A stretch of DNA of 49,153 bases from an uncultured Aliiroseovarius sp. (GTDB lineage Bacteria; Pseudomonadota; Alphaproteobacteria; Rhodobacterales; Rhodobacteraceae). The notes beneath the pieces were generated by a model. The model was not told the DNA's origin and did no database searches. It was given only the letters and a program-made list of their open reading frames with translations. The position numbers and the translations under genes are program-made. The stretch spans positions 1 through 49,153 of the forward strand of contig NZ_CANLNB010000007.1 of assembly GCF_947492455.1 (NCBI RefSeq), read 5' to 3'. Every line of letters begins with the position of its first letter. Within the stretch, counting starts at the first letter, position 1. Below, one piece after another: positions 7,705 to 39,868 of this stretch.

Positions 7705-8877
<1,173 letters not shown>

Positions 8878-8880
<3 letters not shown>

Positions 8881-8953
8881 GAACGCCTAGCGTTCTTATG
8901 GCGACAGGGTATTCGCGCCTCGGCGCGAATGTCCCGAGAGCCTGAGAGACTGA
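8878..8953 (+). ncRNA. Structured 3' UTR motif of tuf copy 1 (shared with copy 2)
   Basis: Hairpin A is TAAGAACGC/GCGTTCTTA, nine pairs that include the stop codon (8878-8898). It is followed by the conserved box GGCGACAGG, a second hairpin with stem ATTCGCGCC/GGCGCGAAT, and the box CCGAGAGCCTGAGAGA. The tuf copy at 30340 has the same boxes, but hairpin B has a different sequence that still pairs. This indicates a selected RNA structure, perhaps a 3'-end-derived small RNA or a processing signal. I do not recognise it as a known family. Confidence 0.6.
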
Positions 8954-8962
8954 AGACTAAGA

Positions 8963-8990
8963 AAGGGGCGCTCGCAGGAGCGCCCTTTTT
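8963..8990 (+). terminator. Intrinsic terminator of tuf copy 1
   Basis: Stem GGGCGCTC/GAGCGCCC with a GCAG loop, followed by a run of five T. It closes the single-gene tuf unit. Confidence 0.9.
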
Positions 8991-17108: not shown

Positions 17109-17353
17109 GCTTTACGCTTTTGGGCCCACGGTGGCCCACAAAATCAAGGCTGGGCCCGGAGAAAATCCGGGTCCAGCCGAACCTGTCTTGAAGAGGGCCT
17201 GAATGCGGGCGTTGTTCTGGGAAAGGTTCAATGGATCGGGAGGGAACCCTTGGGCGGGTTTCCATGAATTGGTTCGAACCCCCGTCTCGGACGAGGTGTC
17301 GCCGGCGACCCAACGGTTGGCGCCTCAGTTGAGAAATGAAAGGTAAATACCTT
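17109..17353 (+). promoter_or_regulatory. Structured rpoB leader
   Basis: The rplL-rpoB gap holds a series of hairpins: TGGGCC/GGCCCA (about 17129-17142), a 13-pair stem GGCTGGGCCCGGA/TCCGGGTCCAGCC with GAAAA loop (about 17152-17182), GGGAACCC/GGGTTTCC (about 17244-17265), CCAAC/GTTGG near 17311, and a short repeat AAGGTA-AA-TACCTT that pairs the rpoB ribosome binding site with the bases just before the ATG. None has a T run, so this looks like a translational or processing control leader rather than a terminator. I recall a published Rhodobacterales 'Rhodo-rpoB' RNA motif upstream of rpoB; this is likely the same element, to be confirmed by its covariance model. Confidence 0.65.
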
Positions 17354-25898: not shown

Positions 25899-25997
25899 TG
25901 TGCGGTAGCTTAATCGGATAGAGCACGCCCGTCTGCCGGCGGGACAGGAGATCAGAAGCATTTCCCCGAGATGCGGGTTCGAGTCCCGTCCGCACAC
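25899..25997 (+). tRNA. Atypical tRNA-like element with no normal anticodon arm
   Basis: The element has a perfect seven-pair acceptor stem (TGTGCGG/CCGCACA) and T8 and A9. The D-arm (GCTT/GAGC) has A14 and the GG pair, and the T-arm is GCGGG-TTCGAGT-CCCGT. Between them, 25926-25972 does not fold into a five-pair stem with a seven-base loop. The best helices are CCCG/CGGG with an eight-base loop (TCTGCCGG) and a separate GGAGAT/ATTTCC hairpin like an oversized variable arm. CCA is not encoded. A consensus TTGACA lies at 25864 but the -10 is weak. It could be a tRNA that lost decoding, a degraded class II tRNA, or a tRNA-like regulatory RNA. No amino acid can be assigned. Confidence 0.6.
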
Positions 25998-30339: not shown

Positions 30340-31512
<1,173 letters not shown>

Positions 31513-31515
<3 letters not shown>

Positions 31516-31582
31516 GAACGCTAAGCGTTCTTAGGGCGACAGGTGAATTGGCCCAGCCAGTTCACCGAGAGCCTGAGAGATA
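31513..31582 (+). ncRNA. Structured 3' UTR motif of tuf copy 2
   Basis: Hairpin A (TAAGAACGC/GCGTTCTTA, 31513-31533) includes the stop codon and matches copy 1 except for its loop. After the box GGCGACAGG, hairpin B is GGTGAATTGGC/GCCAGTTCACC (11 pairs, one G-U). It is unrelated in sequence to hairpin B of copy 1 but pairs equally well, and is followed by the same box CCGAGAGCCTGAGAGA. Confidence 0.6.
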
Positions 31583-31591
31583 GAAGATCAG

Positions 31592-31621
31592 AAAAGGGCT
31601 GCCGACAGGCGGCCCTTTTTT
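31592..31621 (+). terminator. Intrinsic terminator of the str operon
   Basis: Stem AAAAGGGC..CC/GG..GCCCTTTT with a GACA loop and a run of six T, following the tuf 3' motif. Confidence 0.9.
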
Positions 31622-31695
31622 GCGTTGGGGCGGGCTCTTCTGGTCGCTCCCATTCAATTTCTGCTTGTGCCTCGGCCGCAATTAGATACTAGTTC

Positions 31696-36804: not shown

Positions 36805-37152
36805 AGCGCAGTCCTCCCTTTAAGGGCTCCGCGCTGACCGCCTGTTGGTAGGTCCGGCTGCGAAACGGAACCCCCTCGTATGGATACATGTTTGCATAGC
36901 CATAGGTTTCGGGGCAAGAGAGGGCTAGGGCTGCGCCAAGGGCCGCGCGCAGAGCCTTACGATAAAGGGCGATCGGTGCGAAATGAATCCGCCTTGGCCC
37001 TTGCCACATCCCCTCAACCCTGATAGATCGCGCAAGTCTTATGGCCTCGGATTCGTTCCGGGGCCTGTGATATTTTGAACTTGGGGACCTTCGGGGCCCT
37101 ATAACATCCGGGCAAATCATTTGCCCGCACATGCAAACGGAAGACAGTAAAC
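36805..37152 (+). promoter_or_regulatory. Promoter/leader region of the rplB block
   Basis: A 348-base gap without a gene. Because a terminator and minus-strand genes separate rplB from rplW, rplB needs its own promoter. Candidates are TTGCCA/TAGATC (37002-37029, 16-base spacing) and TTGAAC/TATAAC (37075-37105, 19-base spacing). A perfect inverted repeat GGGCAAAT-C-ATTTGCCC (37110-37126) lies 26 bases before the ATG and could act as an operator or leader hairpin. Confidence 0.5.
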
Positions 37153-39796: not shown

Positions 39797-39868
39797 CCTC
39801 GAATTTGCTGAAAGCAAAATCGAGGCGTGCGGTGTAGCGAATTTCCAAAGGAAACTCGCGGGCCGCAC
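39797..39868 (+). ncRNA. Two strong hairpins in the rplP 3' UTR
   Basis: Immediately after the rplP stop, CCTCGA.TTTGCT pairs with AGCAAA.TCGAGG (39797-39825). Next, an interrupted long hairpin has GTGCGG/CCGCAC outside and GCGA.TTTCC/GGAAA.TCGC inside (39827-39868). Neither has a T run, and a terminator follows. They may protect or process the operon 3' end. Confidence 0.5.

Follow-up and report, generated by a model that had tools for sequence, protein, structure and literature searches.

Introduction

Rickettsia palindromic elements (RPEs) insert in frame in protein genes, and in the phage T4 gene 60 hop and the mitochondrial byp elements hairpins of about 40-50 nt interrupt coding sequence. 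The GTAG REPs with their RAYT (Y1) transposases are short dispersed palindromes, many of them extragenic, and are possible stabilisers of mRNA. In its passages on CGTC-tagged REPs, which include dRS3 and RPE-4/RPE-6, PMC3733652 describes elements that occur mostly in alphaproteobacteria, have no known dedicated transposase and are in some cases intragenic. Their unpaired terminal tag is CGTC (TGTC, CCTC), their stems measure 8-9 bp and start with AT, their loops measure 4-5 bp and they have a CCA tail; the main text of that paper names no Rhodobacter, Roseobacter, Paracoccus, Ruegeria, Dinoroseobacter, Jannaschia, Silicibacter or sphaeroides. According to passages of PMC8625941, small RNAs (sRNAs) derived from 3′ UTRs are known in Rhodobacter sphaeroides.

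Comparison with described elements

We analysed a 49,153-nt stretch of DNA (the window) with two tuf genes, each of which ends in a stop-codon hairpin (H1) followed by a second hairpin (H2). Like the CGTC REPs, the family to which H2 belongs is alphaproteobacterial and partly intragenic and has no known dedicated transposase; compared by eye with the description in the passages of PMC3733652, however, H2 shows neither a tag beside an AT-initial stem nor a CCA tail, and CGTC, found by chance in some groEL copies (GGCGTCAGG), is not fixed. With the GTAG REPs it shares the short, dispersed, often extragenic palindrome and a possible role in mRNA stabilisation, but it has no terminal GTAG and possesses a 4×4 internal loop and a covarying outer stem. 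Five of 14 carrier genomes, and 1 of 8 genomes without hits, matched the Y1_Tnp domain (PF01797) of RAYT; the nine carriers with no match included G343 and G449, which hold 20-21 hits each, and mobilisation by RAYT/Y1 was ruled against on this ground. That H2 is a known REP kind (GTAG/RAYT or CGTC type) in a new host is exceedingly improbable, since, despite the short palindromes dispersed in and outside genes of alphaproteobacteria that passages of PMC3733652 report, neither tag forms a fixed end of the element, the layout of stem and loop differs and those nine carriers are unmatched by Y1_Tnp. The likeness to RPEs lies in the placement of palindromes inside protein genes, but the H2 family is often out of frame and mainly seen in transposase genes.

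For H2, Rfam 15 gave no match at the gathering score in the window, in agreement with a preliminary description of the tuf motif that knew of no named family for it. Among six loci searched at E≤1, L001 and L002 gave only weak STnc320 matches (E 0.45-0.85), located at the terminator. Searches of the open-access literature found no description of the hairpin family; PMC3733652 came nearest.

A shared order of hairpins at both tuf ends

At both tuf ends the stop codon lies inside H1, which is followed by H2 and by an intrinsic terminator with a T run (Table 1); in copy 1 the stop codon forms the first 3 nt of H1. On direct reading of the sequence, the coordinates and letters given for this 3′-UTR motif in the preliminary description proved right. 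The stop-codon hairpin, which it had called identical at both loci, has the same arms and a different loop (CTA versus TAA). H1 is followed in both copies by GGCGACAGG, a copy-specific inner stem and CCGAGAGCCTGAGAGA. The "flanking boxes" of the preliminary description are present at both loci as claimed, but they are part of H2 and pair together, GGC with GCC as the outer stem and GG with CC, with GACA facing GAGA.

Covariance model R1 was built from 12 genus copies, 11 of them beside tuf, and R2 is a wider model. In copy 1, H2 (R2 match 8895-8946, E 5.7e-11) consists of the outer stem GGC/GCC, the 4×4 internal loop GACA/GAGA and a long inner stem of subtype GGGTATT..AATGTCCC (8907-8935). In copy 2 (R2 match 31530-31577, E 5.4e-17) loop and outer stem are as in copy 1, and the inner stem, of subtype GGTGAATTGGC..CACC, spans 31542-31566. 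Sequence and folds confirmed that this second stem differs between the tuf copies with its pairing intact. The inner stems match two subtypes met elsewhere. The difference had been taken for paired mutation between paralogues; since the copies are different subtypes of the mobile family described below, the inner hairpins were probably swapped as units, and the two genes most likely carry two subtypes and not stepwise compensatory mutations.

Table 1. Features at the two tuf 3′ ends (positions in the window)
Feature	Position	Strand	Basis
tuf copy 1 (EF-Tu, 391 aa)	7705..8880	+	ORF list, sequence
H1 of tuf copy 1, stop-codon hairpin TAAGAACGC/GCGTTCTTA, loop CTA	8878..8898	+	sequence, fold
H2 of tuf copy 1, subtype GGGTATT..AATGTCCC	8900..8942	+	R2 match, fold
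Intrinsic terminator of tuf copy 1, GGGCGCTCGCAGGAGCGCCC + T run	8966..8990 (stem 8966-8985)	+	sequence, fold
tuf copy 2	30340..31515	+	sequence, ORF list
H1 of tuf copy 2, arms TAAGAACGC/GCGTTCTTA, loop TAA	31513..31533	+	sequence, fold
H2 of tuf copy 2, subtype GGTGAATTGGC..GCCAGTTCACC	31535..31573	+	R2 match, fold
Intrinsic terminator of tuf copy 2	31589..31622	+	sequence, fold

With the terminators included, the two tails had fold stabilities of z = -7.54 and -7.76, and none of 200 shuffles was as stable; the terminator scan lists the terminator stem of copy 1 on the minus strand only. The two-box pattern occurred twice in the whole genome and not at all in a reversed control, and the only one of 198 family genomes that held it was the window's own. 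Full R2 matches in the window were confined to the two tuf copies; weaker ones fell on the reverse strand of copy 2, on a partial hairpin at 39837-39859 (E 0.0067) and on one further site at E 1.7.

H2 is a conserved RNA structure

Pairing of the outer stem was evaluated in 119 distinct copies without use of the covariance model, the copies being found via the inner boxes only and only exact duplicates being removed. The three outer pairs were intact in 115, 112 and 97 copies, the 2000 shuffles averaging 103.2, 60.7 and 52.1 and reaching at most 107, 76 and 68. When 12 genus copies were aligned with MAFFT without a model, 93.8% of cells paired, and both the doubly changed cells and the covariation score exceeded those of all 500 shuffles; the pairs changed on both sides (3 of 14) showed no excess (166 of 500 shuffles). 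In the R2 alignment, which was fitted to the structure, 95.8% of cells paired and 13 of 14 pairs had changed on both sides. With outer pairs above the shuffle maxima, H2 is supported as a conserved RNA structure with covariation, as had been proposed, and the covariance-model search found it outside the window's strain as well.

Across H2 copies the 4×4 internal loop GRCA/GAGA is near-invariant, and in alignment A3 it is kept far better than the inner stem. The latter and the apical loop vary freely and hold no conserved unpaired seed. A loop so much better kept than the inner stem would suit a protein-binding site recognised through that loop, or an RNase E-cut tail acting in trans as a 3′-UTR sRNA of the kind that passages of PMC8625941 record for Rhodobacter sphaeroides. 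Such roles are nevertheless improbable, given the missing seed and the retention of the loop in both orientations inside transposase genes, where an sRNA makes no sense; moreover, no passages on groEL, EF-Tu or elongation factors were found in PMC8625941 or PMC6238624.

H2 follows tuf, groEL and other genes

R1 matched 20 of 21 genus genomes (E≤1) and 52 of 198 family genomes (E≤0.1). DNA matches to tuf were obtained in 18 of the 21 genus genomes and 30 loci were taken, 29 of which, from 17 genomes, hold the tuf 3′ end (L020 does not). H2 was located downstream of 24 of these 29 ends (14 of 17 genomes), on the gene's strand in every case; its inner stems vary by species and by copy, with a constant loop. 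Because it is missing from five ends (L006, L009, L012, L017 and L024) and lies past a first terminator and a repeated tuf-end piece in five of the 24 (L013, L029, L016, L031 and L018), H2 is not essential. The repeated tuf 3′-end pieces in the latter five loci look like a new tail spliced in by recombination between tuf copies. In L006 and L024, the two sampled tuf tails of G202, H1 and the outer boxes are kept and the inner hairpin of H2 is gone. Outside the genus, none of 11 scanned tuf loci, one of which (L232) ends within the gene, had H2 at the 3′ end, among 80 matches listed that were mostly from distant taxa; tuf-end H2 does occur in two other genera (L072, L078).

We also found H2 after groEL in six genus genomes (the window's own, G207, G201, G210, G208 and G215). 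A survey of 90 sampled family genomes gave 30 groEL loci, and in six of them, from six different genera, H2 follows the gene, always on its strand (L291, L294, L302, L308, L314 and L316, with L294 and L308 at E 0.025-0.038). The groEL tails copy the tuf order of stop codon, H1, H2 and terminator, and the H1-H2 order is common to several different genes. Further genus sites lie after a probable fpr (two genomes), a tRNA-Ala and an SRP RNA gene (named by eye), and a lepA-linked variant lacks the GAGA box. The assignment of the motif to tuf 3′ UTRs was therefore too narrow: H2 after groEL and these other genes, and within the transposase genes of IS elements, rules out a tuf-only regulatory motif.

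Tandem H1+H2 arrays were observed after a probable ferredoxin-NADP reductase gene, with three matches in L099 (G200:C14) and two in L098 (G198:C7). A composite H1+CGCTGATCGGCAGG subtype is present in L116 (own genome, C2:650829), L109, L105 and L110, and a thioesterase-like gene (by eye) is near it in L105, L109 and L116.

H2 might be a neutral passenger that was inserted by chance after tuf and groEL with little effect, and was kept by gene conversion of tuf tails and by its harmless position before the terminator. This is unlikely, though not negligibly so: mobile copies do exist, the duplicated tuf tails in relatives indicate recombination at tuf ends and G202 lacks the inner hairpin in both sampled tuf copies, but 24/24 tuf and 6/6 groEL copies on the gene's strand contrast with a 5:4 split in a nine-hairpin IS3, and the same H1-H2 order recurs in several different genes. 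As the UTR copies lie on the gene's strand and are kept, we infer a REP-like role for H2 as a 3′-end stabiliser of abundant mRNAs. The 3′-UTR copies of tuf, groEL and probable fpr, found genus-wide and usually between the stop-codon hairpin and the terminator, would together with H1 form a stable 3′ tail that slows 3′-to-5′ decay of very abundant mRNAs.

A dispersed family with precise insertions

At E≤0.01, R2 matched 134 of 292 genomes of the order, in 67 of 112 genera. In the class, 23 of 289 genomes were matched, three of them within the family, and some of the class matches look fortuitous. Six R2 copies at E≤10 are present in the window's own genome, one of them antisense in an IS3-like ORF. 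With a 47-nt query, 62 plasmid records were matched, most of them from roseobacters; a phage source was ruled against by the lack of any match to one 47-nt query in the phage collection.

Many copies are precise insertions of about 40 nt within transposase genes. Empty sites were identified for two of these genes, in five relatives. In an IS481 gene, the insertion GACAAC^44 nt^GGCATC in L107 cuts the TDNGIQF motif between N and G, compared with the empty L189-L191, and an IS3 gene carries 41 nt in L169 compared with the empty L187 and L188. No target duplication was seen at these two insertions; other sites were judged by eye only. The alignments show a CATTG-like 5′ box and, at the 3′ end, GAGAGG. 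Among 83 copies, C preceded the 5′ box in 87% and G directly followed GAGAGG in 95%. Of 25 order-wide loci, L117, L124, L130 and L135 were left out because the match was located in another place or close to the end of a contig. Pfam scans of the other 21 placed a transposase or IS domain beside or around the hairpin in 13 (three weak: L127, L133 and L137), and the commonest families in 101 flanking segments were HTH_21 (12), rve (10) and rve_3 (7).

Since H2 is not tuf-specific, is found order-wide and forms precise insertions, the tuf motif most likely represents one resident member of a mobile, REP-like family of palindromes in Rhodobacterales, a reading that we consider probable together with the likely stabilising role of the UTR copies. 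R1, although mostly tuf-derived, already matched copies elsewhere. Against this reading, no mobilising enzyme was found, and the 3′-UTR RNA may be the older form, from which the IS copies branched off later, and not their product. As a mobile family, the element would measure about 38-47 nt, with a 5′ box that is CATTG-like in mobile copies, an outer stem of some 3 bp, the 4×4 loop GRCA/GAGA and an inner stem that is free in sequence and kept in pairing. It would be a non-autonomous palindrome moving as DNA, recognised by its stem, loop and ends, presumably by a mobilising enzyme, and would insert in both orientations and without target duplication, mostly between a preceding C (ATC or AAC) and a following GG, and often in transposase genes. 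Co-option may then have made the mobile hairpin a UTR part. What appeared to be a tuf-specific regulator would thus belong to an order-wide mobile hairpin family, which is a clear system in which to study how bacterial palindromes are mobilised when no transposase is known, why transposase genes collect them and by what route selfish hairpins end up as the fixed 3′ ends of core genes (tuf, groEL).

Transposase genes with several hairpins

Nine hairpins are present in the IS3 copy L108, five of them in sense and four in antisense orientation. Compared with an intact relative, its OrfB pieces show 51-87% identity; its coding pieces have dN/dS values of 0.03-0.11, and the gene breaks coincide with hairpins. 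For the coding pieces of hairpin-bearing IS copies the values are 0.02-0.13, and hairpin-free copies are intermixed in the tree. Within single genomes, hairpin-bearing IS copies were located at separate sites: G358 has four, G274 three, and G075 and G449 two each, with five R2 matches in G075. The reading frame is altered across hairpins in L108, L169, L173 and L107, and insertions are in frame in L342, most of L350 and L113; a frame-keeping rule (every insert 2 mod 3) was dropped, given mixed residues in L108 and the in-frame L350 and L342.

Four different genomes carry a hairpin at the same IS3 site, OrfB 132/133. Sharing of such sites by descent was discarded as an explanation, and recurrent insertion fits equally, because hairpin-bearing IS3 copies are scattered among hairpin-free ones and dS is saturated; in this tree part of the hairpin labels were set by visual inspection, and the insert of L327 is a different palindrome, unmatched by R2. 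A second kind of palindrome, likewise unmatched by R2, lies near the OrfB start of the IS3 copies L327 and L350.

The two G075 copies differ by one synonymous and four non-synonymous changes, one of them a stop, which fits dead copies and looks neutral. Those of G358 differ by seven synonymous and two non-synonymous changes, clustered at codons 247-261 in a manner that looks like conversion. The hairpins might instead be intron-like or byp-like, being removed from or skipped in the mRNA so that transposase genes tolerate many of them, and the dN/dS of L108, its breaks at hairpins, the transposed hairpin-bearing IS copies and the shared IS3 site can be listed for this. We regard it as very improbable. 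The likeness to the T4 gene 60 hop and byp is the interruption of coding sequence by hairpins of about 40-50 nt, but those of L108 have no orientation preference and the two G075 copies look neutral. Our preferred reading is that hairpins were inserted into IS genes and then carried along with them.

Other RNA features in the window

A tRNA-like sequence with a long variable arm is located between rpoC and the next gene (25899-25997); Rfam tRNA scored it at 41.9 bits and ARAGORN does not call it. Positions 17233-17323 correspond to Rhodo-rpoB RNA and positions 37083-37150 to the L2-Alphaproteobacteria leader, both known Rfam families.
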